Below the pieces are notes generated by a model. It was not told where the DNA came from. It saw only the letters and a list, made by a program, of their open reading frames with translations, and ran no database searches. A stretch of DNA of 36,192 bases from a virus. The position numbers were made by a program, and so were the translations under genes. Shown in pieces: positions 6,091 through 27,766 of the stretch. Where the stretch lies: the IMG/VR virus record IMGVR_UViG_3300042451_000713, positions 1 through 36,192 of that record. One strand, 5' to 3'. Position 1 is the first letter of the stretch. Every line of letters begins with the position of its first letter.

Positions 6091-6704
6091 TGGCGGTCAG
6101 CCAAAAGACGCTCGCCGAAAGGTGGGAGCTTTCGCCCGGCCGCATTTCCCAGCTAGTGTCCGAAGGGATGCCGCTGGACAGCATCGAGGAGGCGGAGAAG
6201 TGGAGGGCGCAAAGACACCTGACGACAGGCATCGCGCCGGGGGATTACAAGTTAGAACCCGGTTCACAAGCGCCAGGTGAAGGTGAAGACGCGCAGGAAG
6301 CGGAAGACAAAGCTCCGCCGACAGTCCTTGAGACATTCGACTCCATCGTCGAGCGCCAGCGCATCCTCGTCCAGATTTCCCGCAATCAATACATCAAAGC
6401 GGTCAAGTCCGGCTCTCCTCAACAGTCCCGGCTCTACGCCTCCTACGACAAGACCGTCAACACGCTCACGAAGCTGAAGGCGGAGGCGGACAGGCTCGCC
6501 CTGATGAACCGGGAGTATATCCGCGCGTCCGATGCCAAGGAAGCGATGCGAGTCTTGGCGAGCGAGTTCGTGAACCGATTGGACAAGCTTGCGCTGGATG
6601 TCGCCGAGGCATGCAACCCGGAGAACCCGGCGAAGGCAGTCAAAGCGCTGGAAGCCTGGTCGCTCCGCGTGAGAACGGAACTCTCCAAGGATGGACAAAG
6701 TTGA
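6090..6704 (+). CDS. Terminase small subunit, Nu1-like
   Basis: A 204-aa protein. The N-terminus (residues 4-30, QKTLAERWELSPGRISQLVS followed by GMP) is the winged-helix DNA-recognition motif of lambda Nu1-type small terminases. A flexible acidic linker (about 50-75) follows, then helices rich in Lys/Glu that would oligomerise and contact the large subunit. The gene starts inside the stop of the dioxygenase gene (TGATG) and overlaps the large-terminase start by 14 bp, the standard order for a cos-type packaging cassette. Confidence 0.85.
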   Translation: MAVSQKTLAERWELSPGRISQLVSEGMPLDSIEEAEKWRAQRHLTTGIAPGDYKLEPGSQAPGEGEDAQEAEDKAPPTVLETFDSIVERQRILVQISRNQYIKAVKSGSPQQSRLYASYDKTVNTLTKLKAEADRLALMNREYIRASDAKEAMRVLASEFVNRLDKLALDVAEACNPENPAKAVKALEAWSLRVRTELSKDGQS

Positions 6705-8514
6705 ACTCATCAAGGTCGGCCGGAATGTAATCCGCCCGGCCTATTCAGGCGACATCGTGGAATGGCTTGAAAGCAACGTCAACGCCATCCCCGACTCCCC
6801 CATGCCTGGGCCGTTCAGGTCGGACAGGACTCCATGGATTGCTGAAGCACTCCGCATCGCCGCCGACCCGGAGACGCGGCTACTGACAATCCTCGCCAGC
6901 ATCCAGTCCGGCAAGTCCCTGCTCGCCAGGCTATTCTCCTGCTACATCATCGCGAATCAACCTGGCCCGACGATGGTTCTTCAGGCTACGGATGCCGAGG
7001 CGAAAGACTTCTCCATCCGCTACCTCCGTCCGGTCTGGAACAACTGTCCCCCGGTCAAGGACAAGTTCAAGAACGACGACATGGAGCGCTCGACGACTTC
7101 GGACTTCGACCGGATGACCATTTACTGCCGGGGCATTCACAACGAAACGAACCTCCAGCGCTTGTCGCTTCGGTACGTCATCGCGGACGAGTGCTGGATG
7201 GCTCCGCAGGGTCACCTGGCTGAAGCTTCGGCCCGCGTGACCGCGTTCGGCTGGATGGGCAAGCGCATCTTCATGTCCCAGGGAGGTCAGGACGGCCAAG
7301 AGTTCCACCAGCTCCATGAGTCCACGGACATGCGCGACTGGAACATGTGTTGCCCGGCGTGCGGCCATCTTCAGCCGTGGACCTGGTCGCAAGTGAAGTT
7401 CCCGGAGGAGGCGAAAGTGAACGACGAGTGGGACTTCCTGAAGGTTGCCCACGGAACGACCTACGAGTGCGTTTCTTGCAAGGAACGGCTACCGGATACC
7501 AACGCGACGCGCCTGGAGGCGAACTCAAAGGGTCGGTTCGTGTCCACGAAAGCTTCAACGAATGCCAGCTATGTCGGCCTCCATTGGAACAGCATGGCGA
7601 CCATGAGCTGGGGGGAGCTGGCGGTGATGCTCATCAAAGCCAAGGAATCCATCGAGGAGTACGGCGACGAAGAGCCTTTGAGAATCTTCATCCAGAAGCG
7701 CTTGGCTGAAAAGTTCGAAGAACAGGCCGACGAAATCAAAACCGAGGCCGCGCCTGGCGACTTCGCCATGGGGTCAGACTGGGAGCAGGAGGGCGGATTC
7801 GTCAAAGGTCGGCCGACTGTCTTCCATGCCATCACCCCGGAAATGCGGGCCGAGCCTGACTTCGTCAGGATGCGCTTCATGGGAGTGGACGTCCAGAAGC
7901 GCGGCTTCTACTGGGTCATCCGTGGATGGTCTGGGGATGGGCGCTCCCGGATGGTGGACTGTGGTTACTGCTTCTCATGGTCACAGCTCATCGAGACGCA
8001 AACCAAGTACCAGGTTCACCCGGCCAATGTGTTCGTGGACTCCGGCTACCAGCCAGACGAAGTCCTGCAAGCTTGCGCGGCTAACGGATGGGTAGCTACG
8101 CGCGGTGACCAGCGAAACGAGTTCGCCTGGCGAGTGAAGACCCCGGCGGGACTCAAGACAGAGCTTCGTCCGTACTCCGCGCCAGTCGTGGAGGCCGTGG
8201 GAGGGAAGCGCGTCAAGCGATTCTACTTCTCCAACCTCCGCCTGAAGGATGTTCTGGCGGCGCTCATCAAGCGCGGAAAGCACATGATTCCCCGGGATGT
8301 GTCAGAGGAGTACAAGGAGCAGATGAAGTCAGAGAAGCGAACCATCTCGACAAACGGAAAGCCATTATGGGAGCAGATTGCCCAGAGGGACAATCACTTC
8401 TGGGACTGCGAGGTCATCTGTATCCTTCCGGCCTTGGCTTGGAGGCTGACTGGAAAGGTTGACGATGTCATCGCCATGCCAGAGAAAGAGTCCACTCCTG
8501 AGCAAGAGTCTTGA
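6691..8514 (+). CDS. Terminase large subunit, lambda gpA family
   Basis: A 607-aa packaging ATPase-nuclease, of usual length for the GpA family. ATPase part: Walker A ASIQSGKS at 69-76 (Lys75) and Walker B VIADE with Asp166-Glu167. A zinc-binding insert has C220/C221-x-x-C224 and C260-x-x-C263. The C-terminal RNase-H-like nuclease has Asp400 (GVDVQKRG), Asp450 (FVDSGY) and Asp572 in HFWDCE, the three expected metal ligands. It cuts concatemeric DNA and drives it into the prohead through the portal. This family typically makes cohesive ends, so a cos site is expected; none could be assigned. A terminator-like hairpin follows the gene. Confidence 0.97.
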   Translation: MDKVELIKVGRNVIRPAYSGDIVEWLESNVNAIPDSPMPGPFRSDRTPWIAEALRIAADPETRLLTILASIQSGKSLLARLFSCYIIANQPGPTMVLQATDAEAKDFSIRYLRPVWNNCPPVKDKFKNDDMERSTTSDFDRMTIYCRGIHNETNLQRLSLRYVIADECWMAPQGHLAEASARVTAFGWMGKRIFMSQGGQDGQEFHQLHESTDMRDWNMCCPACGHLQPWTWSQVKFPEEAKVNDEWDFLKVAHGTTYECVSCKERLPDTNATRLEANSKGRFVSTKASTNASYVGLHWNSMATMSWGELAVMLIKAKESIEEYGDEEPLRIFIQKRLAEKFEEQADEIKTEAAPGDFAMGSDWEQEGGFVKGRPTVFHAITPEMRAEPDFVRMRFMGVDVQKRGFYWVIRGWSGDGRSRMVDCGYCFSWSQLIETQTKYQVHPANVFVDSGYQPDEVLQACAANGWVATRGDQRNEFAWRVKTPAGLKTELRPYSAPVVEAVGGKRVKRFYFSNLRLKDVLAALIKRGKHMIPRDVSEEYKEQMKSEKRTISTNGKPLWEQIAQRDNHFWDCEVICILPALAWRLTGKVDDVIAMPEKESTPEQES

Positions 8515-8564: not shown

Positions 8565-8627
8565 ATGGGTTGGGGAGGCGGCACCCATCCCCTCTGCCAA
8601 CATGGTCAAGGGATGGGCCTTTCTTTT
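8565..8627 (+). terminator. Terminator-like hairpin with competing upstream stem
   Basis: CCCATCCC (8584-8591) and GGGATGGG (8610-8617) form an 8-bp perfect stem followed by CCTTTCTTTT, a rho-independent-type signal. An alternative stem ATGGGT (8565-8570) with ACCCAT (8583-8588) uses the same 5' arm, so the two folds exclude each other as in an attenuator. The T-tract runs directly into the 15-bp element at 8626. Confidence 0.65.
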
Positions 8628-8640
8628 GACTCCCGCGTAG
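8626..8640 (+). promoter_or_regulatory. Late 15-bp element, copy 1 (TTGACTCCCGCGTAG)
   Basis: Exact copy of the element found five times in the structural region. It begins 19 bp before the ATG of the gpW-like gene, the same distance as copies 3 and 5, and ends in GTAGGG, which could give weak Shine-Dalgarno pairing. It overlaps the T-tract of the preceding hairpin. Confidence 0.75.
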
Positions 8641-8644
8641 GGTT

Positions 8645-8911
8645 ATGGCTCAGGCAACCGGGTGCTTTCTAATTCTATCTCAAGCTCGCGTTGAGGCTAT
8701 CGCCGACCGAGCGGCCAGCATGCTCATGGAAGGAAAGACCATGATGAGCTACACGGATTCCGGGACTTCTGTTTCCAAGTCCTTCCCGATGGACATCCAG
8801 ACGACCCTGATTGAGTGCCGATACGCGCTCCAAATCAAAGACCCGGCTCAGTACGGCTCTATCGACCGCGTGAGAGTTTACAATGGACTCTGGAACTTCC
8901 GAGGCCTATAA
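8645..8911 (+). CDS. Head-tail connector, lambda gpW-like
   Basis: An 88-aa protein between large terminase and portal, exactly where lambda carries W. The central pattern (helix with ADRAASMLMEGKTMMSYTDS, beta hairpin, then FPMDIQTTLIECRYALQI) fits the gpW fold of two helices around a beta hairpin, in which the protein plugs the portal after packaging. Sequence similarity alone is weak; position supports the call. Translation starts at ATG 8645 just after 15-bp element copy 1. Confidence 0.6.
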   Translation: MAQATGCFLILSQARVEAIADRAASMLMEGKTMMSYTDSGTSVSKSFPMDIQTTLIECRYALQIKDPAQYGSIDRVRVYNGLWNFRGL

Positions 8912-8917
8912 GAGTTT

Positions 8918-10498
8918 ATGCCAAAGAAACTTACGAAGTCTCAAGTCCGCAAAGCCGTCGCCGATGTAAAGGCGTATGCCCGCAAGAAAGGACTGAAGAC
9001 GATGGCCGATGGATTCGGCGGCGGAGGTTCGGGCATCTTCTCGCAGTTCGAAGGCGCGAAGTATTCCAATAAGCGCCAATGGGTCAATACACCCTGGCCC
9101 GCTGACCAGAAGAAGGTGATGACGGTCTTTGACCGCCAAGAGCTTACGCGCAAGATGCGCTGGCTCGCGGTAAACTCCGGACTCATCCGTCAGATGATTT
9201 CGGACAATGTGATGTACGCCATCGGCGACGGCATCCGAGGTCAGGCCGCGTCCAAGGATGAAGCTTGGAATGACCTGGCGGAACACTACTTCCTAGACTG
9301 GGCGAACAAACCTTGCGACATCACCGGGCGATTCAACTTCTGGGAGTGCCAGCAGATTTCCTGCCGAAAGGTTGATGTGGATGGAGAGATGTTCATCCTT
9401 AAGACTTTCTCTTCTGACGGAGTCGCCAAGATTCAGCTCATCGAATCCCACCGGGTCGGCACTTCCGCCGCGGCTATGGGTGCGCCGGAAGGAATGTTCG
9501 ATGGCATCATGTTCAACAAGTATGGCGCTGTCATCGGATACAATGTAATCCGTAGCGATGGAACGACCCGGCTCGTTCCGGCGAACTCCATGCTTCACTT
9601 GCATCACCCGGAGAATGTGTCCGGAGCGCGCGCCTACTCGCCGATGCAACACAGCATCAACAACTTAATCGACATCCTTGAGATTCTGTCGATGGAGAAG
9701 CTTGCCGTCAAGACTGCCGGGGACATCACCAGAACCATCACGCGCGAGAATCCTCAGTTCGACGGAACGACGGCTGACTTTGAGGCCTTCGGCATGCGCC
9801 CGCAGGATTATCCGCAGGGTGTCTACGACAACCCGGAACAGGTCGGCTCGTTCATCGGCGGCAAGATTCTCTCCCTTGCGCCCGGCGAGAAACTCGAAAG
9901 CTTCCAAAGCCAACGCCCGAACGCGAGCTTCACCGGATTCATTGAGCACCTCCAGAAGGATTCTACGGCCGGAGTCCTCCCCTATCAGTTCACCGCCGAC
10001 CCCAATGGTATCGGCGGCGCGGCCATCCGCCTGGTCGTCAGCAAGGCGGAACGTCATTTCGGCGCTCGCCAGCACATGTTCATGACTCGCTTCCTGACCC
10101 CGGTCTGGGGCTATGTCATCAGCAACGCAATTTCCCGCGGTGAGCTTCCTCCTAACGACGAATGGCACAAGGTTAACTGGGTCACTCCGCGCCGCGTGAC
10201 TGTCGATGCAGGACGCGAGTCCGCCGCTAACCAGAAGGACATCGCGATGGGCCTCAAGACCCTGTCCGACCACTTCTCGGAGCTGGGCATGGACCCGAAG
10301 GAGGAAATCCGCCGTCGCGCTTCCGACGCGAAGCTTCTCAAAGATACCGCCGATGAGTTTGGAGTTCCTGTCTCCATGCTCTATCAGCCTTCCAACAATC
10401 CGGCTGACATCGACATCACCCTGGGCGACTCGCCCGAACCAAAGCAGGAAACCTTCACCCCTTTCCCAGACGACTCTAAAAATAATCCCGATGCGTAA
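8918..10498 (+). CDS. Portal protein, lambda gpB family
   Basis: A 526-aa protein of the lambda-type portal family, with the expected segments: an N-terminal clamp region with Arg-Lys-Met-Arg near LTRKMRWLAVNSGLIRQMI, IGDGIRGQ, the FNFWECQQIS region, HLHHPENVSGARAYSPM (conserved in the family), and a C-terminal AAN-KDIAMGLKTLSDHFSE segment. It forms the dodecameric ring at one vertex of the head through which DNA enters and to which the connector attaches. Its stop overlaps the protease start by 8 bp. Confidence 0.93.
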   Translation: MPKKLTKSQVRKAVADVKAYARKKGLKTMADGFGGGGSGIFSQFEGAKYSNKRQWVNTPWPADQKKVMTVFDRQELTRKMRWLAVNSGLIRQMISDNVMYAIGDGIRGQAASKDEAWNDLAEHYFLDWANKPCDITGRFNFWECQQISCRKVDVDGEMFILKTFSSDGVAKIQLIESHRVGTSAAAMGAPEGMFDGIMFNKYGAVIGYNVIRSDGTTRLVPANSMLHLHHPENVSGARAYSPMQHSINNLIDILEILSMEKLAVKTAGDITRTITRENPQFDGTTADFEAFGMRPQDYPQGVYDNPEQVGSFIGGKILSLAPGEKLESFQSQRPNASFTGFIEHLQKDSTAGVLPYQFTADPNGIGGAAIRLVVSKAERHFGARQHMFMTRFLTPVWGYVISNAISRGELPPNDEWHKVNWVTPRRVTVDAGRESAANQKDIAMGLKTLSDHFSELGMDPKEEIRRRASDAKLLKDTADEFGVPVSMLYQPSNNPADIDITLGDSPEPKQETFTPFPDDSKNNPDA

Positions 10499-11885
10499 TC
10501 TATCCAAAGACTTCAAGGGCCAGCGACCGCTCCTCATCCAGCCCGCCCAGGCTGAAGCCTACCTGAACCGGGTCGGCGACATGGACATCCCCATGTCCGC
10601 CAAGATGTCCGACATGGGTGAAATGCTTTCCGCCATCTTCGGCGAGAAGCCGACGCTCGAAAAGTTCCCTCCCTTCGCCATCATCCCGGTCAAAGGAGTC
10701 ATCGGCAAGAACCTCTCGGAGCTTGAATCCATGTGCGGATGTTGCGACATCCACGATGTCGAGGAGATGCTGGAAGAGTGCGAGCGCGACACCTCCATCA
10801 AGACCATCATCTTGGACATCGACTCGCCCGGCGGCACTTCCGTCGGAGTCCCTGAACTCGCCAATCGAATCAAGAACTGCACCAAGGAAGTCATTTCGTT
10901 CACCGGGAACGAGTGCTGTTCCGCGGCCTATTGGCTCGGCTCCCAGGCCTCCAAGTTCTATGCTACGCCTTCGGCCTCCGTTGGCTCTATCGGCGTGTAC
11001 ATCGCTTTCCCTGATTGCTCTGAAGCTTTCAAGATGGAAGGCGTGAAGATGGATGTCATCAAGTCCGGCGCGTACAAGGGTGCTGGAATCCCCGGCACGT
11101 CCTTGGACGAGGGCCAGCGCAAGATGCTCCAGATGGAGGTCGAAGACATCCACGCCGACTTCAAGGAGGCCGTGAAGTCCGTCCGCTCATTCGTCGAGGA
11201 CAGCTCCATGGAGGGCCAGATGTTCTCCGGCAAGCGCGGCGCGGAAGCCGGACTGGTCACTTCCCTGACCAATGGTTTCGACGAGATGCTCCAAGAGCTT
11301 GATGCCGCCGTGTTCGCCCAGGTCGAGTCCGACGAGGAGAACGACAAGCGCCACGCCGACGAGATGAGCGCTTCCTCCGAGGAAGAGTCCGAAGACGAAA
11401 AGGCTTTCGCCCTCAAGAAGCTCAAGGCTACCGCGGCTTCCCGCGCCCTGGCCGGGTTGAAGATTAAGATGTCCGACGAAGACAAGGATGACGAAAAGAA
11501 GTCCAACGGCGACGAGGATGAAGAGGACGAAGAAGAAAAGAAGGAGTCCAAGTCTGACGACGAGGACAAGCCCAAGGACAATGACGAGGAAGAAGAAAAG
11601 AAGTCCGAAGGGGATGACGAAGACAAGAAGTCCGAAGACGACGACAAGCCCAAGGAAGAGGGCGAAGACGAAGAGAAGAAGTCTGAAGACGAGGACGACG
11701 AGAAGAAGTCCGAGGATGAAGACCAGGGTACCGAACCCCAGCCTGACGGCGAAGATGAGCCTGAAGACGGCAAGTCCAAGGAAGACGCGGACGACGAAAA
11801 CGACTCCGGGGAGAAGGCCGTAGAAACCGACTCCAAGCACAATAAGGAGTCCGTCAAAAAGAACCGCTCCAAGGGAGTCGCTTGA
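10491..11885 (+). CDS. Head maturation protease (S49/gpC type) with long acidic tail
   Basis: A 464-aa protein. Residues about 60-285 are an SppA/ClpP-like S49 peptidase: LDIDSPGGTSVGV, then Ser144 in CCSAAYWL as the likely nucleophile and Lys196 in AYKGAG as the likely general base. The family, like lambda gpC, cleaves scaffold and portal during prohead maturation. The last about 160 residues are extreme low complexity, almost only Asp, Glu, Lys and Ser with repeated DEDKKSED-like units, and should be disordered. Such a tail is not usual in the family and may act as an internal scaffold or DNA mimic inside the prohead. ATG 10491 overlaps the portal stop. The stop TGA is part of 15-bp element copy 2. 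Confidence 0.9.
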   Translation: MRNLSKDFKGQRPLLIQPAQAEAYLNRVGDMDIPMSAKMSDMGEMLSAIFGEKPTLEKFPPFAIIPVKGVIGKNLSELESMCGCCDIHDVEEMLEECERDTSIKTIILDIDSPGGTSVGVPELANRIKNCTKEVISFTGNECCSAAYWLGSQASKFYATPSASVGSIGVYIAFPDCSEAFKMEGVKMDVIKSGAYKGAGIPGTSLDEGQRKMLQMEVEDIHADFKEAVKSVRSFVEDSSMEGQMFSGKRGAEAGLVTSLTNGFDEMLQELDAAVFAQVESDEENDKRHADEMSASSEEESEDEKAFALKKLKATAASRALAGLKIKMSDEDKDDEKKSNGDEDEEDEEEKKESKSDDEDKPKDNDEEEEKKSEGDDEDKKSEDDDKPKEEGEDEEKKSEDEDDEKKSEDEDQGTEPQPDGEDEPEDGKSKEDADDENDSGEKAVETDSKHNKESVKKNRSKGVA

Positions 11886-11896
11886 CTCCCGCGTAG
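11882..11896 (+). promoter_or_regulatory. Late 15-bp element, copy 2
   Basis: TTGACTCCCGCGTAG, 33 bp before the scaffold-gene ATG. The TGA in it is the stop codon of the protease gene. It belongs to the long-leader class with copy 4, both followed by a CTCAAC sequence and then a G-poor leader. Confidence 0.75.
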
Positions 11897-11914
11897 GCTC
11901 AACTCAAAAGACCG

Positions 11915-12379
11915 ATGACCCTCGAAGAATCCCTCAAGGCGCTGAAGTCCGCCTTCACCTCCAAGTCCGGCGAGGCCGAGGCTATGGCGAAGGAAGTCTC
12001 TGACCTGAAGGCCTCCAACAAGTCCCTCAAGGACTCTGTTGAAGCTTCGGCCAAGGCCTCCGTCAAGGCGGTCGCCGCGGTTGCCGCCGAGCGCGATGCC
12101 GCCATCGCCAAGGTCGAGGAACTGACCAAGGCGCTCGCCGCTACCGAGGAGCTGAAGAAGCAAGCTGTCTCCCAGATTGAGTCCGTCGGCAAGAAGTCCG
12201 CGGCCATCGCCGCGTCTGTCGGCGTGACCCCGGTGGAAATTTCCGCCGCTGATTCTGCCGCGACCAAGTCTCCTGAAGAAACCTGGAGCGAGTACCTCGC
12301 CATCAGCAACCCGGCCGAGAAGGTCGCGTTCTACAACAAGAACCGCGCCTCTATCGTCGCCCACCTGGGCATCAAGTAA
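11915..12379 (+). CDS. Scaffold-like coiled-coil protein
   Basis: A 154-aa protein, Ala/Lys/Glu-rich and predicted helical for residues 1-105 (repeated LKASNKSLKDSVEAS, AAERDAAIAKVEELTKALAA). It ends in a compact segment with ETWSEYLAISNPAEKVAFYN. Its place between maturation protease and major capsid protein is that of a scaffold or decoration gene; the long coiled coil favours scaffold. It is preceded by 15-bp element copy 2, so its expression is probably set separately from the protease. Confidence 0.7.
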   Translation: MTLEESLKALKSAFTSKSGEAEAMAKEVSDLKASNKSLKDSVEASAKASVKAVAAVAAERDAAIAKVEELTKALAATEELKKQAVSQIESVGKKSAAIAASVGVTPVEISAADSAATKSPEETWSEYLAISNPAEKVAFYNKNRASIVAHLGIK

Positions 12380-12410
12380 TTTTCACCAACCACTCACTCC
12401 CTAAATAATC

Positions 12411-13325
12411 ATGGCTAACAACGTCCTCAACCAGGGCCTCGCCCCCCAGTTCGTCGCCGCGGAAACCCTCCGTACGCTCGTCCCGGTGCTTGCCCCCCTC
12501 AACAAAATCGTGACCACCGACTTCAGCGCCTATGTCGCTGAAAAGGGCCAGGTCGTCCACACTCGCTTCGCTAATAAGTTCACGGCAAGCACCTACGTCC
12601 GCGCCAACGGCTTCGTCCCTGCCGACGCTAACGCTACCGACGTCGCAATCACGCTCGACTCCCACAAGTATGTCGCCGCGGCCTTTGACGACACCGAAGT
12701 CGCCACCATCTCGCTCGACATGCTCCGCCGCGTGTTCATCGCTCCGATGGCTAACGCTACCGTCAAGTCCCTGTTCGATGGCGTTCTGGCTCAGACTACT
12801 GTCGCCAACTACGCTGGCATTGCCTACACTGGCACGAAGGCTAACTTCAACCGCGTTGCTATCGCTGGTGCCGCGACCGCGATGACCAAGGCTAACCTCC
12901 CTCTGACCGACCGCTCTATCCTGCTCTCGCCGGATGCTTTCGGCCAGCTCCTTCAGGATGCCTCCGTCGCTCAGTACCTCTCCATCGGCGACACCTCCGT
13001 CATCCGTGACGGCAAGGTCGGCCGACTGCATGGTATCGACATCTACGAATACAACGGCTTCGATGCCGCTCCTGCGGGTCAGAACCTGGCTGGTATCGCC
13101 TCTTGCCGCGAGGGCCATGTCCTCGTCACGCGCGTCCCTGCCGCTCCGACGACTGGCGGCGGCGAACAGATTACTGTTCAAGACCCCGACTCCGGCTTCG
13201 CCTTCTCCCTCCGTAGCTGGTACGATTGGACCAAGGGTCTGTCGAACATCTCGGCTTCGTGGATTACTGGTGAGTCCGTGGGCAACCCGGACGCCGCCCT
13301 CCGCGTCGTCATCACCGACCTCTAA
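12411..13325 (+). CDS. Major capsid protein
   Basis: A 304-aa protein, the expected size and position for the shell protein. Features suit a HK97-fold coat of the P22-like branch: an N-terminal helix, RFANKFTAS-YV, TLDSHKYVAAAFDDTEVATI, a long central helix, RSILLSPDAFGQLL, and GRLHGIDIYEYNGF, the typical beta-rich A-domain segment near the end. Codon use is the most biased in the window (almost no rare codons), consistent with very high expression. The leader is A/C-rich with no Shine-Dalgarno. A strong terminator follows directly. Confidence 0.88.
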   Translation: MANNVLNQGLAPQFVAAETLRTLVPVLAPLNKIVTTDFSAYVAEKGQVVHTRFANKFTASTYVRANGFVPADANATDVAITLDSHKYVAAAFDDTEVATISLDMLRRVFIAPMANATVKSLFDGVLAQTTVANYAGIAYTGTKANFNRVAIAGAATAMTKANLPLTDRSILLSPDAFGQLLQDASVAQYLSIGDTSVIRDGKVGRLHGIDIYEYNGFDAAPAGQNLAGIASCREGHVLVTRVPAAPTTGGGEQITVQDPDSGFAFSLRSWYDWTKGLSNISASWITGESVGNPDAALRVVITDL

Positions 13326-13344
13326 TCCAGAGGTCAGGCGTAAC

Positions 13345-13370
13345 AAGACCCCGGGCAACCGGGGTCTTTT
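13345..13370 (+). terminator. Rho-independent terminator after the capsid gene
   Basis: A perfect 10-bp stem AAGACCCCGG/CCGGGGTCTT closed by a GCAA tetraloop, followed by a short T-rich stretch. It is 20 bases after the capsid stop. It would separate the very abundant capsid message from the connector genes. Confidence 0.88.
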
Positions 13371-13405
13371 GTTTGGGAGGGCCATTAGACCCCTCTGGCG
13401 AGGCC

Positions 13406-13419
13406 GTGGCGGCTCTTTT
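13406..13419 (+). terminator. Weak second hairpin with T-tract before element copy 3
   Basis: A short GC-rich imperfect hairpin (GGCCGTGGCGGC region) ends in CTCTTTT, whose last two T's begin 15-bp element copy 3. It mirrors the hairpin/T-tract/element arrangement seen at 8584-8640. Confidence 0.35.
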
Positions 13420-13432
13420 GACTCCCGCGTAG
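13418..13432 (+). promoter_or_regulatory. Late 15-bp element, copy 3
   Basis: TTGACTCCCGCGTAG, starting exactly 19 bp before ATG 13437, as in copies 1 and 5. It follows two hairpins that would stop upstream transcription, so it is well placed to restart or protect a message. Confidence 0.75.
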
Positions 13433-13436
13433 AGGC

Positions 13437-13778
13437 ATGGGCAGTATCCAAGACGAATGGGCCGCAGATGCCGGGCAAATCCTTAACGAGATTCCCAAGG
13501 CCGTGACTGTCCAGAAAGCTTCAGGCCTCCCGGTGTCTTTTAATGTCCTCATGACCGACCCGATGGTTCAGCAGGATTTGGAGACTGGAGGCTTCTTGGA
13601 CTCCGCGGCATTTGATGTGAAGTTCCTCAAGTCTGATGTCTTGGCTCACCCCGGTGTCGTCATCTTTGGAAACCTGGTTTCCTTTAATGGAAAGCAGTAC
13701 CGAATCGTAGCCATCAATGACCGTCCCCCTTCCGCCTGGGTAGTCGTCAAGGTTCAGACCAAGGTCGGCCCGGCTTGA
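13437..13778 (+). CDS. Head-tail joining protein, gpFII-position
   Basis: A 113-aa, beta-rich protein directly after the capsid gene, where lambda carries FII. It ends in GNLVSFNGKQYRIVAIND, a strand pattern typical of the small barrel shared by FII, tail-tube and Hcp proteins. The product of 15153-15494 has the same length and a similar C-terminal half (GNLVTYGGISYIIDDITND), so the two look paralogous; both are preceded by the 15-bp element. Function is assigned mainly by position. Confidence 0.65.
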   Translation: MGSIQDEWAADAGQILNEIPKAVTVQKASGLPVSFNVLMTDPMVQQDLETGGFLDSAAFDVKFLKSDVLAHPGVVIFGNLVSFNGKQYRIVAINDRPPSAWVVVKVQTKVGPA

Positions 13779-13780
13779 AC

Positions 13781-14671
13781 ATGGCTATCAAGCCTTCAAA
13801 GCACGTTTCGCTTGATTCCAGCACATTGATGGCGCATTTGCATGACTATGCCAAAGTCATGGGAAAGGAGCTTGGAGAGGTCGTCCGGGAACAGGCCGGG
13901 CATTTCTGCATGGACTTGGTCAAGTATACGCGACCATTCACAAGTCCAGGCAAGGGACTGGATTCCGGTTCAAAGAAGAAGGGGGAGGACAATGTTCACA
14001 AAGCGCTCAACGTCGTCTTCCGTCCAATCAAATTGGCGACCCTCCAGCAACTATCCGACATGAGGAGTTTCGAGGTCTTCAAGATGTGGTCAAAAGAGAA
14101 CTCCGGCTCCGGCTCCGCCAAGTCCCTCAAGGGACAATGGGACTCCATTCAAAAGAAGCACCCTCCCAAGAAGACAATGGCATACATCGGTAGCGACCAA
14201 GGTTCGATGGGAAAAATCCACTCCAAGCTTCGTAAGTATTCAGGCAAGGGGGGATTGATGGATTTCGCTAGGAAGTCCAAGGTACCCTTCGCTTTCGTGA
14301 AAAAGGAAAACGACATCAAGGCTTACGCGAAGCAGAAAGCCAAGGATGTCGGCTCGTTGAAGGCCGGGTACTGGTACGCGGCGCAGAAAATCCGGGCCAA
14401 GGAAATCCGCGCTCCAGCATGGATTAAACACACCATCGGCCAGCAATACGCCATCGGACAAGACCTGATTAATCAATCGATGAAGCCAGAAGCGCTGATT
14501 GGCAACCTGGTCGGCTTCCGGGCCATGCCTAGGGGACTCCTCAATGCCGCTATCAGTTATCGCCAGTACGCCATGCGGACGAAGATGGCCGCGGAGCTTA
14601 ACAAGCGCAAGGTTCCGCTTTGGCTTGCAACGGCTCAAGGACTCACTACGAACACGCAACAACACTTCTGA
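13781..14671 (+). CDS. Tail completion protein, gpZ-position
   Basis: A 296-aa basic protein, Lys-rich throughout (KPSKHVS, GSKKKGEDNVHKALN, KKHPPKKTMAYIG). It lies between the FII-like and U-like genes, as lambda Z does; Z-type proteins help join tail to head. ATG 13781 follows the previous stop by two bases; a TTG six bases upstream is possible but less likely. Sequence similarity to a named family is not obvious to me. Confidence 0.6.
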   Translation: MAIKPSKHVSLDSSTLMAHLHDYAKVMGKELGEVVREQAGHFCMDLVKYTRPFTSPGKGLDSGSKKKGEDNVHKALNVVFRPIKLATLQQLSDMRSFEVFKMWSKENSGSGSAKSLKGQWDSIQKKHPPKKTMAYIGSDQGSMGKIHSKLRKYSGKGGLMDFARKSKVPFAFVKKENDIKAYAKQKAKDVGSLKAGYWYAAQKIRAKEIRAPAWIKHTIGQQYAIGQDLINQSMKPEALIGNLVGFRAMPRGLLNAAISYRQYAMRTKMAAELNKRKVPLWLATAQGLTTNTQQHF

Positions 14672-14673
14672 CC

Positions 14674-15120
14674 ATGACGACCTACGGAATTCGAACCATC
14701 GCCGAACAGTCCCTCGCGGCTTGGTTCGCCACGAACGCGGGCATGCTCCCAGGCGTTCAAATCAATGTAGGCCAGACCGGGGAGATTCGCTCCATCCCCT
14801 CAGTCATCCTGTACGCGGAAGGCGCGGACTCCCATCCCAACTTCGGCGGGCGACCCCTTGGGAACTTTGAACTTTCCATCAAGATTTACATCTACTCCTC
14901 CGCCGACGACGCGCCGACCGAAATCGAGGCGCTCAATCTGCACCGGAACCGGGTCGAGAACGTCCAAGCTATCATGCAGGATTTGGCCGGATTGAAGGCC
15001 GCGTGGACTCAAGGCAAGCTTTACCATGCTTGGTTGCGTTCCGACGAGGAGGGGGTTTCCGACCGACGATACGGAAATGTCCTGACCTACACGGCGGCAT
15101 GCGTCTATCCCCCGGCTTGA
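14674..15120 (+). CDS. Tail terminator, gpU-like
   Basis: A 148-aa protein of mixed alpha/beta character, typical of minor tail protein U: an N-terminal helix (RTIAEQSLAAWFATNA), a strand block (SIPSVILYAEG), FELSIKIYIYSSADDAPTEIE, a helix with LHRNRVENVQAIMQDL, and a final strand. U caps the growing tail tube and binds the connector. The start two bases after the previous stop and the place in the Z-U order support the call. The stop codon forms part of 15-bp element copy 4. Confidence 0.7.
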   Translation: MTTYGIRTIAEQSLAAWFATNAGMLPGVQINVGQTGEIRSIPSVILYAEGADSHPNFGGRPLGNFELSIKIYIYSSADDAPTEIEALNLHRNRVENVQAIMQDLAGLKAAWTQGKLYHAWLRSDEEGVSDRRYGNVLTYTAACVYPPA

Positions 15121-15131
15121 CTCCCGCGTAG
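15117..15131 (+). promoter_or_regulatory. Late 15-bp element, copy 4
   Basis: TTGACTCCCGCGTAG, 36 bp before ATG 15153. Its TGA is the stop of the U-like gene and it is followed by ACTCAAC, as in copy 2. Confidence 0.75.
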
Positions 15132-15152
15132 ACTCAACACCAAGCGACCCCT

Positions 15153-15494
15153 ATGGCACTCCCTCAAACTTACGGCGTTGACCACGAATACGGCCCGGTC
15201 GATGTGACCTCCTCGTTCATCACCATCCAGTCGGACAACCTGAAGGAAAACACCAATCTTCATGTCGAGGTCAAGGACTCCCAAGGTCGAATCATCACCG
15301 TCCGAAAAGACGACCTCCTGCAGAGCGTCAATTTTTCTGGTGTCCTTAAAGTCGGCGGCACTATCCCTGTCCCCGGCAACCTGGTCACCTATGGTGGTAT
15401 CTCGTACATCATCGACGACATCACCAACGACGGCACCAATGAGAGCTTCCGAAAGGTAGCCATCAACGGCCGCAAGTACCAGGAAATCGCCTAA
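15153..15494 (+). CDS. Tail-tube-position beta protein, FII paralogue
   Basis: A 113-aa beta-rich protein in the position of the major tail (tube) protein between U and the chaperone/tape-measure genes. It is short for a tube protein. Its C-terminal half (PGNLVTYGGISYIIDDITND, then a helix-poor end) resembles that of the FII-position protein at 13437. FII and tube proteins are known to share a fold, so a duplicated barrel that has become a minimal tube subunit is possible; a second connector subunit is the alternative. A small hairpin follows the gene. Confidence 0.5.
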   Translation: MALPQTYGVDHEYGPVDVTSSFITIQSDNLKENTNLHVEVKDSQGRIITVRKDDLLQSVNFSGVLKVGGTIPVPGNLVTYGGISYIIDDITNDGTNESFRKVAINGRKYQEIA

Positions 15495-15509
15495 TCCCTT
15501 TTCAGGGAT
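15494..15509 (+). other. Short intergenic hairpin
   Basis: ATCCCT-TTTC-AGGGAT, a perfect 6-bp stem overlapping the stop of the previous gene and ending nine bases before the next ATG. There is no T-tract. It could modulate translation of the chaperone-position gene or limit mRNA decay. Confidence 0.4.
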
Positions 15510-15518
15510 AAACCACCA

Positions 15519-16094
15519 ATGGAAAAGCGGTGGATTAAGGCGGCGACAATCCTGCAACCCTCAATCGAGGTTTGCGGGACTCGTCTTTTAAAGTTCAGCC
15601 TCCGTCACCGGGTCGCCCTAGAAGCAATCGACAGTCCAGTCCTCCGGCCTGGCGCTCCCATGACCGCGTCCCACCTTGTAGCCGCAGTCAAAATCCTGTC
15701 CAGCAAGACAATCGAAGAAATCGCTACCCCGGCCACGCTGAAGCAAAAATACTGGGTCAGTAGCATGGAGTTCAACCAGTCCCGGCTAATCAAGGAAATG
15801 TCGAAGCTCATTCAATACCTTGACCTCCAAGCTTCGTGGCCTCGGTTCTGGCAGGACGAAGACAACAAGAACTCCAAGGGCGATAATGGAATCCCCTGGG
15901 AACTCGCCGTCGTTGCATCATTGGTCAGGAACGGATGTACTACAGAAGAGGCTTGGACTATGCCGGAAGCGGAGGCAATCTGGATGCACATGGCTAACTG
16001 CGCTTACCAAGGTTCGGAAATCAAAATCATCACCGACCAAGAATGGGACGCGATGATGAAGCACAAGGAAAGCCTAAAAGAAAAATCCAACTAA
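15519..16094 (+). CDS. Tail assembly chaperone-position protein
   Basis: A 191-aa protein located between the tube-position gene and the tape measure, where siphophages encode their assembly chaperones. The C-terminal part (EEAWTMPEAEAIWMHMANCA, then TDQEWDAMMKHKE) resembles the short conserved ends of such chaperones. I looked for the usual slippery site and a downstream overlapping frame and saw neither, so only one form seems to be made. Assignment is by position and should be taken as tentative. Confidence 0.5.
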   Translation: MEKRWIKAATILQPSIEVCGTRLLKFSLRHRVALEAIDSPVLRPGAPMTASHLVAAVKILSSKTIEEIATPATLKQKYWVSSMEFNQSRLIKEMSKLIQYLDLQASWPRFWQDEDNKNSKGDNGIPWELAVVASLVRNGCTTEEAWTMPEAEAIWMHMANCAYQGSEIKIITDQEWDAMMKHKESLKEKSN

Positions 16095-16100
16095 AAGAAC

Positions 16101-17312
16101 ATGGCAGATGACGTAAAAGTAAAGTTCGGCGGGGACTTCACGGAAGTCTCTAAAGGCGCGGAGTCAGCGACCTCCAAGGCCGGGGGAGCTTTGTCTGCAT
16201 GGTACAAGGACTTCACCAGGTCTACGATGGCAAGCCTTACGGCCGCGGTTGCCTTGAGCGCCTTGTTTGGCAAGCTTGTCGAGAACCTCGTGGCGACAAG
16301 CAAGTATGCAAAAGAAGTTGACGATGCTTTCAAAAGATTCGGAAAGGGCACTGGCTCAGACGAGTTCCAGAAGGTTGCCAAATACGGCAAAGAGGTAGGC
16401 GTTTCCATGGAAGCAGTAGGTCGTACGATGAACTACTTCGCCAAGGTCACAGACGCCGCATCGAAAGGGAGCGCGTCCCACCGGGCCGCTCTTATCGGAT
16501 TGAAGTTCACGGAGGATGAAATCAGCTCCGGACGAATCTCCGCGATTGAGGTTCTTTCTAGAATGTCCGACGAGTACGACCGAACCGGGAACGAGGCCTT
16601 GTCCGCCCAGCGAGCCGTCCAACTCTTCGGCGTTCAAGGCGAGCAGTTGTCCGCTATTTACAAGAACGGAAAGCATAACCTGGTGGCATTCACCGAAGCG
16701 ACCAAGACTATGGGCGACGCGCAGATTGAGGCTCTCGCGAAGACAGAGCGCCGAATCGAAAGATTCAAGGAAGGGATGAAGGGAGTCGGTGCTGTGATTT
16801 TGGAAAATCTCGGCGCCGCGTCCGCATGGGTTGAAGGGAAGGGAGTCGCCCAAGAGGTTTTCGCGGGGACTTACGGAGAGACAGGCGGAACGGAAGAACA
16901 GGAAGCCCGCTCTATTTCAGGTCAAATCTTCGGAGAATTAAAAGGCGACCGGGATGCAGTCACGGCCGCAATCGATAGACTCAAAGGAATTGAAACGTCC
17001 TTTTTCTCAAGCGAAAAGGAGTCCCGGACTGCGAAGCTTGCACAAGAGGGTCTTTATGCGCTCCTGAAGAAGGCCGAAGAAAAGCCAAAGGACGACAAGA
17101 AGGAAACCGGGCCTCCCTTGCTGAACAATGTCAGAGCGATGGCCGTATCTTCGCTTCAGGAGATTGGCGGCGGAGATGTCAGCTCTGTCCTGTCTGGGAC
17201 TTACCAGACTTCGATGCTTGACGCGGCAACCAAGACTGCCGAGAATACGCGCAAGCTCGCCGAGGATGCCGGGAAAGCGCCACAGGCGAAACCAACTAAC
17301 ATCGCTAAATAA
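16101..17312 (+). CDS. Short tape measure protein
   Basis: A 403-aa helical protein, Ala/Lys/Glu-rich. It has an N-terminal amphipathic segment (DDVKVKFGGDFTEVSKGAES), a hydrophobic stretch SLTAAVALSALFGKLVENLV at about 43-62, heptad-like helices including KTERRIERFKEGMKGVG, and a C-terminal AATKTAENTRKLAED that resembles the ENT-repeat ends of tape measures. Tail length scales at roughly 0.15 nm per residue, so a tail of about 60 nm is expected, short for a siphovirus. It starts six bases after the chaperone-position gene and its stop overlaps the next ATG. Confidence 0.75.
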   Translation: MADDVKVKFGGDFTEVSKGAESATSKAGGALSAWYKDFTRSTMASLTAAVALSALFGKLVENLVATSKYAKEVDDAFKRFGKGTGSDEFQKVAKYGKEVGVSMEAVGRTMNYFAKVTDAASKGSASHRAALIGLKFTEDEISSGRISAIEVLSRMSDEYDRTGNEALSAQRAVQLFGVQGEQLSAIYKNGKHNLVAFTEATKTMGDAQIEALAKTERRIERFKEGMKGVGAVILENLGAASAWVEGKGVAQEVFAGTYGETGGTEEQEARSISGQIFGELKGDRDAVTAAIDRLKGIETSFFSSEKESRTAKLAQEGLYALLKKAEEKPKDDKKETGPPLLNNVRAMAVSSLQEIGGGDVSSVLSGTYQTSMLDAATKTAENTRKLAEDAGKAPQAKPTNIAK

Positions 17313-18193
17313 TGCCCACCCCATCCACGACTAGACTCGATTACGGCAACCCTCTTGGCTGGGCCGAGTATGTAGCCGCGCCGCAAGGCTCTATCACCTG
17401 TGACGCATACGGCCTCGTCCAGTCTCAACTTGTTTTCACAGTTGATTCCGCGGACGAGCAGATTGTCAACGTCCTGAATACGGCAAGCTTTGCAAACGCT
17501 CCGTACCCTTACAACATCGGCATCGAAATGACGGCATACAAGTATGCTATCAGTTTTCAGCCAGGAGGTGTCGCGACTGTGACCATTGATTTCGTCGGAA
17601 TTAAGCGCGAGTCCGGAATCACCGACTGTCAGATTACAGGTGTTTCTAACACGACGGCTCAACCGATTGAAACGCACCCGAACTTCACAGTAGTGACGGA
17701 CGACACGATTGGAAATCAGTCTCCGACGCAAATCCTAGCCGGGCCTCCTTCCCAGCCATCCAGCAATCCTAACAAGCCAATCTTCATTCCTTCCGGGGAT
17801 GTTTATGCGCCTTGGCGCTTTGATGGTTTCGGTCTTGCCGCCGACGGAACTCGCAACCGTAAGGCTGGCATCCGCCACTTCCTTCGACCTATGTATTCCG
17901 TCCGTGGCGTCGTCTTCTTCAACCGGGCGCAGGGATACCGGGCCGCCGCCATGACCAACGGAGTGGGACGAACCTTGTCTAACGAAGATGACATGTTCAA
18001 ACTAATCACGCCTAACGACATTCTCGGTGCGCTTTCCCCTGACCTATGCTTGCTGACGGCGGCAAACGCCGAGTGCATCGGAAGTCCTGATTATTACGGC
18101 GCAATCAAGGTCACTTATGACATCATGATTGGCGGCGAGCTTGGTTGGGACTCCGACATTTACGGCCCGATGGCTTCGGCCATCTTCGGATAA
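17312..18193 (+). CDS. Distal tail protein, unknown family
   Basis: A 293-aa beta-rich protein directly downstream of the tape measure, where siphophages encode the distal tail (Dit) or hub protein. No signature of a named Dit family is visible to me. Proline- and serine-rich residues about 140-158 look like a linker between two domains. The TAATG overlap with the tape measure indicates coupled translation. Confidence 0.55.
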   Translation: MPTPSTTRLDYGNPLGWAEYVAAPQGSITCDAYGLVQSQLVFTVDSADEQIVNVLNTASFANAPYPYNIGIEMTAYKYAISFQPGGVATVTIDFVGIKRESGITDCQITGVSNTTAQPIETHPNFTVVTDDTIGNQSPTQILAGPPSQPSSNPNKPIFIPSGDVYAPWRFDGFGLAADGTRNRKAGIRHFLRPMYSVRGVVFFNRAQGYRAAAMTNGVGRTLSNEDDMFKLITPNDILGALSPDLCLLTAANAECIGSPDYYGAIKVTYDIMIGGELGWDSDIYGPMASAIFG

Positions 18194-18195
18194 AA

Positions 18196-19773
18196 ATGGA
18201 AGACTTAGGTTTCAATGGCTCCGGGTCGCATTTCAACTCCCGGTTTGAAGCCGGAGCGCCTATCCAAGCGAAGCAACTTAACGAGCTTGCGGCTGGGGTT
18301 CAGGCAAGCTTGCCGATTCCTTATCTCGGCGAAGGGCCTAGTGTTAGCTTCACCCCTGGCGGCTCTATCATTGTCGACAATCGTTACAGGTTTGAGCCTG
18401 GAGGCCCTTCTGGAACAATCATCCAGCAGTATCAAATGCGTTCCATCGCGGTGGACGGTTCCGCTCGCCTTCAAATCGCGAAAGGAACTGTAAGCTTCAC
18501 TCAAAGCAACATGCCTCGCGTCCGCCAGGGTGGTCACAGCGACCAGCGTCAGGGTTGGATTAGCAAGGTGGCTGTCTACGGCGATGGAGTAACTGTTACT
18601 TCCGGCGCTGGTGACCCTTTGTGGATGGACGGAAACGGCTATTACAGTTTCAGCAACGTCGGCACTTACTATGTCACAATCAGCAAGTTCGACATCACGC
18701 AGTCCAATGACGACACGGATAGCGAACTCCTGAACGCAGAAGCCCCATGGGTTTCAATCTTCCCGGCCGGAGACGACATTGAGGACATAATCTTTTCTGA
18801 GACTGGGCCTTCCCTTTATGTCAATAAGACCAACGTCCAAAAGATGGTCGGCTACGACGCGATGTCTACTGGACTTCAAGGTGACTGGGGAAATTGCCAC
18901 ACGACTTGGTTCAACCCTGTAAAGTGGGGCTACGCGCTGAAGCTGATTGGAATAGTGACGGTCACGAATCCTGCTGACCAGGGTTTCGTCATCTCTATTG
19001 ACCAGCACATCGTCGGCCCTATTGACCTCCAGATTCCCTGCCTGTTCAACGGAACGACCCTTTGCAATCAAGACGACCTGACGGAGACGAACGACCCTTA
19101 CAATATCAACAAGGACTCAACGCCGAAGTGGGCGAACATGGCTAACTCTAGCACCCTGAGCGGGATGGATAGTTTGGTCAATGCCAACGATGATTGGTAT
19201 GAAGAGTTCGTAGGCCCGGCGGACTGGACGGAACAGAACTACGACTACAAACTCCCGGGAAGCTGTGCCGCGCAGGACGACGGCGATACTTGCGAGCATC
19301 CGTTCCAGATGAAGCCAAGGGAACTGACAGTAGCATCGCCAGAAGGCCCAGTCATTCTTTACCGCGCCAACATCTGTGCTGGTACTGTCAACAACCTTAT
19401 CCCTTGGAACCGTCCCGGCCCAAGCAAGGTCAAGCTCCCGACAAGCATCGACTTCGGCTACGGCGGCCCGGGAGTATCAGAATGCAAAGTTTTCCTGAGA
19501 GTTGGAACTGAAGGCCATAATACCAACAATCCCATCTTCCCGGTCACCGACGACAGCTCCGAGCTGTATCCGACAATCGTTCAGTATTACGAGGACCAAT
19601 ACCCCGACATCCCTGCCGACGACGACATCTTCTGCTACATCCTCATGGGCGTGGCGCGGAACATCGGCGACCCCCAAAACTTCACCATCGACCAGACAAT
19701 CTCCGGCTCTGTCTGGGCCGAGCGTCTCAAGATTGGTGACAACGTCGCCCGGTATTACTGGGCCGGAGTCTGA
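18196..19773 (+). CDS. Large tail-tip protein of unknown family
   Basis: A 525-aa protein, beta-rich, acidic and aromatic. It contains at least ten Cys, several in the last third (GSCAAQDDGDTCEHPF, ICAGTVNN, SECKVF), and GNCHTTWFNPVKWGYA in the middle. The N-terminus has Gly-rich turns and NELAAGVQASLP, a motif often seen at the start of minor tail proteins. It probably forms part of the adsorption apparatus. Base composition is slightly less GC-rich than in the head genes. It starts three bases after the preceding stop and overlaps the next ATG. Confidence 0.55.
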   Translation: MEDLGFNGSGSHFNSRFEAGAPIQAKQLNELAAGVQASLPIPYLGEGPSVSFTPGGSIIVDNRYRFEPGGPSGTIIQQYQMRSIAVDGSARLQIAKGTVSFTQSNMPRVRQGGHSDQRQGWISKVAVYGDGVTVTSGAGDPLWMDGNGYYSFSNVGTYYVTISKFDITQSNDDTDSELLNAEAPWVSIFPAGDDIEDIIFSETGPSLYVNKTNVQKMVGYDAMSTGLQGDWGNCHTTWFNPVKWGYALKLIGIVTVTNPADQGFVISIDQHIVGPIDLQIPCLFNGTTLCNQDDLTETNDPYNINKDSTPKWANMANSSTLSGMDSLVNANDDWYEEFVGPADWTEQNYDYKLPGSCAAQDDGDTCEHPFQMKPRELTVASPEGPVILYRANICAGTVNNLIPWNRPGPSKVKLPTSIDFGYGGPGVSECKVFLRVGTEGHNTNNPIFPVTDDSSELYPTIVQYYEDQYPDIPADDDIFCYILMGVARNIGDPQNFTIDQTISGSVWAERLKIGDNVARYYWAGV

Positions 19774-20285
19774 TGGCCTCCCGCATCGGCGGGCCTGTCA
19801 TCAATGGTTTCAACCCAAGGCTGAAGACTTGGGCAGATATGCGTTCTCCGCTTGTGCTTAACGGAGCGACTTGGAACTCTTCGCGCACCGAGTTTTCCAA
19901 ACAGTTTCCTCTAAGCCCTAACGACCCGCCTTGGACTTCGTATAAGTATTTCAAGTGGAACAGCGGCTCCCTGTTTAGGCACGACACAAGAATCGCTTTT
20001 GAATCTGGGGTTGCCTATGTCTCCTGCTTTAGCCAAGAGGAGTCCTACGACCCACCTTACCCAAGTTATACTGCTCTTAACATCGGAGACTTCGGGCCAC
20101 GGAATGTAGACAACAACGACTTCCTTCAACTTGTAGGCGAGCCAATCGACATCGACCTCGGGACATTCATTATCAACGCTGATGCCCATAGCCCGACGGC
20201 GGGAGGTCAAACCTTGACCGATTGGCCTGTCGGAACGTCCCCATTCCGCCAAATCTACGCCATCGGGAAGCTGACAGGGTTCTGA
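19773..20285 (+). CDS. Small tail-tip protein of unknown family
   Basis: A 170-aa Trp/Tyr/Pro-rich protein, beta-type, with no recognised domain (GGPVINGFNPRLKTWADM at the start, WPVGTSPFRQIYAIGKLTGF at the end). The start overlaps the stop of the large tail-tip gene (TGATGG), so the two are likely made in fixed ratio and act together. Confidence 0.5.
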   Translation: MASRIGGPVINGFNPRLKTWADMRSPLVLNGATWNSSRTEFSKQFPLSPNDPPWTSYKYFKWNSGSLFRHDTRIAFESGVAYVSCFSQEESYDPPYPSYTALNIGDFGPRNVDNNDFLQLVGEPIDIDLGTFIINADAHSPTAGGQTLTDWPVGTSPFRQIYAIGKLTGF

Positions 20286-20287
20286 CT

Positions 20288-20302
20288 TTGACTCCCGCGT
20301 AG
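20288..20302 (+). promoter_or_regulatory. Late 15-bp element, copy 5
   Basis: TTGACTCCCGCGTAG, starting 19 bp before ATG 20307 and followed by GGTC then ATG, almost identical to copies 1 and 3. It opens the fibre/lysis part of the late region. Confidence 0.75.
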
Positions 20303-20306
20303 GGTC

Positions 20307-20633
20307 ATGGCGGCACCGACAATCATTTGGAAGCGCGGGCAGACTTTCGTCGCATCCGGCCCTTACGTCCCAGGCGCGGGCGACCCGGTCAACCTAGCCG
20401 GGGTCACCATCGAAAGCGAGGTCATGGACTTCTCCAGGGTTCGCCGACCCCTCGCCGTCACCATCGGCCAAGACAACCTGACTGTCACGCTCAGGGCGGA
20501 AGCTTCTGATACGGCGGAATGGACGGTCGGGACTGCCGCCATCGACCTCCGTTGCGTAAAGGACGGAATCGTTTTCGCCACTACGACTGTCCGCTTCGTC
20601 GTCGACCAAGAAATCACTCTCCCGAATGGCTAA
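20307..20633 (+). CDS. Small tail-fibre-associated beta protein (BppU-N-like)
   Basis: A 108-aa protein predicted to be all beta, with alternating strands WKRGQTFVASGPY, GVTIESEVMDFS, LTVTLRAEASDTAEW, AAIDLRCV and ATTTVRFVVDQEITLP. This is the pattern of the small N-terminal domains that hold fibres to baseplates (for example BppU-type). It overlaps the fibre gene by 8 bp, so it is probably the fibre's adaptor. Confidence 0.6.
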   Translation: MAAPTIIWKRGQTFVASGPYVPGAGDPVNLAGVTIESEVMDFSRVRRPLAVTIGQDNLTVTLRAEASDTAEWTVGTAAIDLRCVKDGIVFATTTVRFVVDQEITLPNG

Positions 20634-23455: not shown

Positions 23456-23735
23456 GGTCATCTGGCGCAAGCTTGGCCGCGAGGTCGCGTGGGGACAGGC
23501 TCACTTCGACGCGGCGCGTCCGCTCATCGAGATTGACCCTCGCCTGGGCGCGAAGCGACAGTTGGAAGTCCTGTGCCATGAGGTTCTTCACATCACGATG
23601 TTCCCCGGCGACGCGTCCCCCGAAACTGAAAAGGTCGTAGACGCGGCCGGAAAGAAACTCTGCGAGACGCTCTGGAAGCAGAACTACCGCCGGGTGATGA
23701 TGGACAAGAACACGAACCCTCCGCGCATCTCATGA
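23439..23735 (+). CDS. Small HExxH metallopeptidase-like protein
   Basis: A 98-aa protein with a perfect zinc-peptidase motif His47-Glu48-x-x-His51 (CHEVLHI) in a helix preceded by a strand (PLIEIDP), the minimal zincin core. Similar small HExxH proteins occur in many phages next to lysis or tail genes; their substrate is not established. It overlaps the spanin-like gene by 17 bp and the holin by 4 bp, so it is probably part of the lysis operon, perhaps cutting a peptidoglycan cross-link or a lysis regulator (inference). Confidence 0.65.
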   Translation: MAKGIKVIWRKLGREVAWGQAHFDAARPLIEIDPRLGAKRQLEVLCHEVLHITMFPGDASPETEKVVDAAGKKLCETLWKQNYRRVMMDKNTNPPRIS

Positions 23736-27536: not shown

Positions 27537-27766
27537 GCAACCTACTGCACCCGAAGCTGGAGCGCCTGGAGGTCGTCGCCGACAAGGATGGATGGGCGAG
27601 CCGGGATGAGTTCACCTGGCGACCCTGTCCCTGTTGCGGCGACCGACTGGCCGGGGAGCGCTACGAGGTGAAAGCCATCTACTACAACCGGAAGTCGCCC
27701 TCCACGATTTCCGTCATGCGTGGAAGCTTCTGGGTCTGCAACGACTGCGTCATCGAGTACCAATGA
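27533..27766 (+). CDS. Small zinc-ribbon protein
   Basis: A 77-aa protein with C-P-C-C-G near residues 32-36 and C-N-D-C near 69-72, a typical zinc ribbon spaced by beta strands. It overlaps the ArdA-like gene by 4 bp, so the pair is co-translated and may work together. No catalytic motif is visible. Confidence 0.68.
   Translation: MSNLLHPKLERLEVVADKDGWASRDEFTWRPCPCCGDRLAGERYEVKAIYYNRKSPSTISVMRGSFWVCNDCVIEYQ

Follow-up and report, generated by a model that had tools for sequence, protein, structure and literature searches.

A short sequence element precedes late genes at five junctions in the genome of an uncultured phage (IMG/VR record IMGVR_UViG_3300042451_000713, positions 1 to 36,192; this whole stretch of 36,192 nucleotides is referred to as the window). 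The element is genuine, it is conserved, and the selection on it is strong; for these reasons, it is almost certainly functional. It probably represents a compact, phage-specific late promoter of approximately 20 bp, read by host RNA polymerase together with a phage factor; that it acts as a promoter, where transcription starts, and which factor is involved are inferred from sequence comparison.

The contig ends in an exact 397-bp direct terminal repeat (1-397 and 35796-36192), and because it is terminally redundant, the record is probably complete at 35,795 bp. Terminal repeats of several relatives measure 106-127 bp, which matches the size of an assembler k-mer. Judged by its capsid protein, this phage is closest among cultured phages to Verrucomicrobia phage P8625 (29.5% identity; genome paper PMC4642752), and TerL relatives encoded by bacteria are found, among others, in Akkermansia prophages and in a Verrucomicrobiaceae MAG (37-39%); on these grounds, we infer a host in the Verrucomicrobiota. 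A phage DNA collection searched at near identity contained no match to the window, and Rfam and tRNA scans of the window returned nothing. The genes that bear on the following are:

826-2205, helicase
3556-3897, + strand, conserved 113-aa gene directly 5′ of the 3908 gene, possible co-factor
3908-4543, + strand, 211-aa HTH protein with a weakly sigma-region-4-like C-terminal half, candidate reader of the element
6090-6704, TerS
6691-8514, TerL
8645-8911, + strand, 88-aa gene downstream of copy 1, with a conserved MAQATGCF start
8918-10498, portal
10206-11885, S49 protease
12411-13325, + strand, major capsid protein (PHROG 283/267), second gene after copy 2
20626-22632, tail fibre (668 aa)
23732-24109, holin

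The sequence TTGACTCCCGCGTAG occurs in five exact copies, at 8626, 11882, 13418, 15117, and 20288, all on the + strand and nowhere else, just as a preceding sequence-only reading had reported. The copies, extended to the conserved unit described below, are classified as short or long according to their distance from the start codon:

8626-8645, + strand, copy 1 (15-mer plus pyrimidine-A at 19-20), short; A20 is the A of the ATG at 8645; before the block of the 8645 gene, portal, and protease
11882-11901, + strand, copy 2, long; ATG at 11915; over the TGA of the protease ORF; before a 154-aa probable scaffold gene and the capsid gene
13418-13437, + strand, copy 3, short; A20 is the A of the ATG at 13437
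15117-15136, + strand, copy 4, long; ATG at 15153; over the TGA of ORF 14620-15120; before a 113-aa probable tail protein
20288-20307, + strand, copy 5, short; A20 is the A of the ATG at 20307; before the block of the 20307 gene, tail fibre, and lysis genes

The spacings described previously also hold: the 15-mer begins 19 bp before the ATG at three copies (8645, 13437, 20307) and 33 or 36 bp before it at the other two (11915, 15153), and the latter share a following CTCAAC and contain the TGA of the preceding gene (11883-11885 and 15118-15120). No copy with one or two mismatches to the 15-mer is present in the genome, and the sole match with three mismatches is a single sequence counted twice via the terminal repeat. 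Seven matches at up to three mismatches are thus observed against a mean of 1.2 in shuffled sequences, and the 15-mer is the only 14-mer or 15-mer to occur five times in the genome. The five-copy occurrence is far above chance. The motif is absent from the early region and from the opposite strand, as is the case for phage-sigma late promoters.

In each of sixteen related phage genomes, five copies are present, and the five gene junctions that they occupy are the same. When IMG/VR was scanned with the 15-mer, 51 stretches were identified, most of them relatives whose copies occupy these junctions and whose flanks have diverged; the matches outside the phage family (L010, L019/L032, L034, L040, L052, L055) have no gene-start context and resemble chance occurrences. 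Relatives were additionally gathered with capsid and TerL profiles, which avoids the bias of a motif-based search, and these likewise show it at the five junctions, in a spelling that often differs between genomes yet is alike within one genome. The element reads TTGACTGCCGCCTAG in G005, TTGACTCCCGCGTTG in G006 and G007, TTGACTGTGGCGGAG in G008, TTGACTCCCGCGCTA in G011, TTGACAACATCGCAT in G012, and TTGACnnnnTCGCCAGA in G013; TCCCGCGTAG versus TGTGGCGGAG exemplifies a pair of differing versions from two phages. In G003, one version is common to the three short sites and another to the two long sites. The element is retained although the encoded proteins diverge (tail gene identity falls to 30%), and the late genes that serve as anchors are mostly without known function. 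A site-specific reading factor would be the simplest cause of such concerted changes in spelling.

The element had been described as 15 bases long; the 15-mer is exact in the window, but the conserved unit spans 20 nt and comprises box 1 (TTGAC), box 2 ([GT]CG at positions 10-12), and a pyrimidine-A (YA) at positions 19-20. When non-homologous sites were compared inside each of 13 genomes, within-genome identity was 0.79-1.0 at positions 1-15 (1.0 at positions 2-5, 10-12, and 14-15), approximately 0.57 at positions 16-19, and 0.96 at position 20, and it equaled background at position 21 in short-long pairs. Among 106 short and 88 long distinct instances, many of which are related and hence not independent, position 19 is C or T in 106/106 short sites and 99% of long sites, as compared with C or T immediately before the ATG in 50% of other conserved genes. 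At long sites, the base at position 20 does not belong to the start codon, and it is A in 99% of them. The GG-rich tetramer with which three window copies were previously said to end is not conserved; what stays is the YA, fixed beside variable positions 16-18. The start codon lies 19 nt from the beginning of the element at short sites and 26-42 nt at long sites, and the 20-nt unit is intact throughout.

The sequences upstream of the short sites place a further constraint on the function of the element. A terminator-like hairpin and an intrinsic terminator precede short copies in the window:

8584-8625, + strand, terminator-like hairpin CCCATCCC...GGGATGGG with a T-rich tail; ends 8 nt before copy 1
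13347-13374, + strand, intrinsic terminator GACCCCGG-GCAA-CCGGGGTC-TTTTGTTT that follows the capsid gene and lies 43 nt before copy 3

In many relatives, three copies are preceded by intrinsic terminators. Terminator-like hairpins with a T-run occur upstream of 44 of 112 short sites; among long sites the count is 1 of 123, and random windows have them in 2% of cases. In some relatives, the terminator that follows the capsid gene abuts the copy-3 element; in G011, a terminator T-run even merges into the first TT of the element, with the ATG 19 nt further on, so that approximately 20 nt are left. Provided that these terminators are functional, the downstream gene has to be transcribed from a start inside the element or immediately 5′ of it, and no other promoter was seen in the space after the terminators.

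The element begins with TTGACT, which had been noted as -35-like without a -10 at the right distance, and no -10 is indeed present 17 nt after it. It is highly improbable that the copies are ordinary host sigma-70 -35 boxes with a weak or activator-dependent -10. TTGAC is the -35 core, and the cultured relative P8625 has TTGACA-17-TATTGG before late genes; however, a -10 hexamer approximately 17 bp after TTGACx was not found upstream of the genes, and at short sites a -10 at 17 nt would lie inside the gene, whereby the start codon would be lost from the mRNA. Moreover, identity between sites stops at position 20, and a sister clade of phages lacks TTGAC.

Among the three functions offered by the sequence-only reading, namely late promoter, RNA processing site, and translation enhancer, the late promoter is best supported, owing to the abutting terminators, the fixed initiator-like YA, the concerted change, and a conserved phage regulator. 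The translation enhancer is disfavoured because the spacing to the ATG is variable (19-42 nt) and the 20-nt unit nevertheless remains intact, and for RNA processing, no conserved upstream sequence pairs with the element. An element acting at the RNA level nevertheless merits attention: transcripts from upstream promoters would contain UUGACUCCCGCGUAG, and a phage or host protein or RNase would recognize it in RNA and cut or bind there, thus freeing the ATG, with cleavage before the A of the ATG at short sites generating a leaderless mRNA. All copies lie on the coding strand before start codons, Shine-Dalgarno cores are scarce in the window (5/35 gene starts, below the 20% background), and A20 coincides with the ATG at short sites, all of which would suit such an element. 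We consider it unlikely, given that the hairpins directly upstream of many short sites would require read-through, the distance to the ATG varies, conserved pairing is lacking, and a pyrimidine at position 19 is typical of transcription starts. One candidate for upstream pairing, an inverted partial copy located after TerL and before copy 1, was rejected, being present only in the window and its closest relative.

As a late promoter, the element would extend from approximately -19 to +1, with box 1 (TTGAC) at about -19 to -15 and box 2 ([GT]CGnnn) at about -10 to -5, and both boxes would be read by a phage-encoded promoter-specificity factor together with the host RNA polymerase core. The start site would be position 20, the A of the pyrimidine-A pair. 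At the three short sites, this A would be the A of the start codon, yielding leaderless mRNA, and a terminator often sets the corresponding blocks apart from the genes before them. At the two long sites, before the scaffold and capsid genes and before a tail gene, the promoter would sit on the previous stop codon and generate a leader of 10-20 nt; these promoters may be internal boosters for highly made proteins. The factor may be the HTH protein encoded at 3908-4543, perhaps together with its neighbour at 3556. A point against this model is that in the clade of the window the -10-like part of the element is rich in GC, an odd property for melting by host RNA polymerase.

The 3908 family is present in 15 of the 16 element genomes; in the exception, G004, the contig ends there, the first element lying 4,085 nt from the contig end, and the family is thus found in every element genome whose sequence spans the region. 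The previously proposed binding of this protein to the element is therefore reasonable. At the corresponding position, phages of the sister clade encode a diverged homologue; in an Akkermansia prophage, a homologue is detected weakly; and the 3556 gene is syntenic in the element clade and the sister clade. AlphaFold2 (AF2) modelled the C-terminal half of the 3908 protein, including the HTH, confidently, and a deeper alignment lifted the mean pLDDT only from 69 to 71. Sigma factors and region-4 domains are frequent among its Foldseek matches, none of them significant (E ~0.5-1), and include domain 4 of sigmaA (4g8x; TM 0.58 by target); its significant matches among viral structures are nearly all uncharacterised phage proteins. 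Neither a profile search against PDB sequences nor Pfam returned a match, and no sigma region 2 was identified in the protein. A partial Mantel test of element divergence against 3908 divergence did not support coevolution (p 0.22); the best score was that of 31616-31951 (partial r 0.63, p 0.002, uncorrected for approximately 20 tests). The latter encodes a small protein present in all element genomes, in which no HTH was seen. The 3908 protein is hence the best candidate reader, not an established one. It is a serious possibility, though short of probable, that this family of small phage proteins, not recognisable as sigma by sequence, directs host polymerase to a 20-bp two-box promoter starting at the A of the start codon, that key virion operons thereby yield leaderless mRNAs, and that the whole constitutes an undescribed system of Verrucomicrobiota phages and prophages.

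Promoters of single-subunit RNA polymerases are also about 20 bp long, constant within a genome, and changing between clades. The constancy of the 20-bp element within genomes, its change between clades, and its start-proximal position would fit an unrecognised phage enzyme of this kind (T7-like or N4-like). That reading is improbable: among the ORFs covered by family scans, neither an RNA polymerase nor a recognisable sigma gene was identified, and the record, probably complete, has no ORF near 800 aa, the largest encoding the tail fibre (668 aa), TerL, the protease, a late protein of 542 aa, and the portal. Very improbable, too, are binding sites for a repressor or a ParB-like partition protein in place of a promoter. 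A ParB-like domain protein is encoded at 4647-5303, and five dispersed sites could serve as operators; against this, most of the genomes with the element lack the ParB-like gene, the element is asymmetric, in a single orientation, and locked to gene starts, and no other promoter is visible after the terminators. On the same distribution, the ParB-like protein was rejected as the reader. Its gene overlaps that of a TET/JBP-like 2OG-Fe dioxygenase (5056-6090); the pair, found in few relatives, is a possible DNA base modification cassette (4647-6090).

Related designs occur beyond the element clade. The sister-clade element, T[TA]CCA...GGGCAAnnnYA, stands in the same register. Akkermansia prophages show a like geometry, with TTGACA... 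and YA at 19-20; sites with the ATG at 19, 21, or 22 keep the YA at 19-20, and at two sites with the ATG at 20 it is shifted one base later. A host-wide signal was rejected because matches to TTTGACA-N13-ATG in Akkermansia assemblies cluster on prophage contigs and are not genome-wide. The Akkermansia prophages L297-L301 have more than five element sites each, including TTGACA-type elements before TerS and other genes, and the element middle is not conserved among their copies.

Several characterized systems invite comparison. The late promoters of phiEco32 (tAATGTAtA, a single element read by the phage sigma phi32_gp36) and of phage 7-11 (GTAAtg-16-aCTA, SaPh711_gp47) start transcription 6-9 bp from the element, 6-8 bp downstream of it in phiEco32, and are used by host core polymerase with a phage sigma (PMC8948821; see also PMC4331800); phiEco32 thus offers a precedent for the proposed promoter. 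As in those phages, few copies precede late or structural genes and the spelling diverges between related phages. By contrast, the present element differs in sequence and in its two-box 20-nt layout, its start appears to coincide with the ATG at three sites, its candidate factor is not a sigma by sequence, and the phages and host phylum are unrelated. The element may work like these phage-sigma late promoters; the features compared do not prove membership. T4 late promoters have an AT-rich -10-like box. They are 8 bp long, have no -35 element, and are read by gp55 with gp33 (PMC2988020), thereby resembling the present element in being compact and downstream-only and in relying on phage specificity factors on the host core (PMC2988020). 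T4, however, has a sliding-clamp activator and many sites, whereas here the boxes contain GC and the sites are five; family scans of the ORFs identified no gp45, gp55, or gp33 homologues, and an AT-rich 8-bp box was not found. The start-associated sequences (SAS) of cluster K mycobacteriophages are likewise short, asymmetric repeats; they share one orientation and directly precede start codons (PMC3203893). They contain the Shine-Dalgarno sequence AGGAG, lie 3-7 nt from the ATG, and precede non-structural genes (PMC3203893), whereas the present element has no Shine-Dalgarno sequence, includes the A of the ATG or lies 26-42 nt away, and precedes late genes; it is not an SAS. Several late genes of P8625 are also preceded by TTGACA, but with a sigma-70-like -10 at 17 nt, a GTATCC dyad, and a start codon much further away. 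Upstream of 5448, 10772, and 15594 in P8625 (L066), TTGACA-17-TATTGG/TATCTG overlaps a GTATCC...GGATAC dyad, a different late-promoter design. Three traits set the present element apart: a two-box design of 20 nt, a start site that appears to fall on the start codon, and a candidate factor that does not resemble sigma in sequence.

These observations offer a testable rule, readable from the sequence, for how late genes are controlled in a large group of uncultured Verrucomicrobiota phages, Akkermansia relatives included. Literature searches, with subscription papers outside their coverage, retrieved neither a description of this signal nor published work on transcription in this Verrucomicrobiota/Akkermansia phage group. 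Since every phage has a version of its own that matches across all its sites, the group constitutes a natural experiment for the recognition code of the reading protein. In genomes that lack annotation, the element can point to the beginnings of operons, and it may be a source of orthogonal promoters. Should transcription begin at the A of the ATG, leaderless translation in Shine-Dalgarno-poor bacteria would be linked to phage promoter design.

Two further repeats were observed. In G008, eight near-identical copies of GCAACGCATC spaced by multiples of 69 bp lie at 27189-27879, downstream of the fifth element, apparently in a repetitive protein. In the window, CCACCAAACCAA occurs at 2265, 26482, 26783, 29302, and 32561, within an A/C-rich leader just before the ATGs of early or replication genes, and relatives have different versions, for example CCACCAACCC in G002 and AACCCAAACCCACAAATGA in G003; it is possibly the early-class counterpart of the late element.
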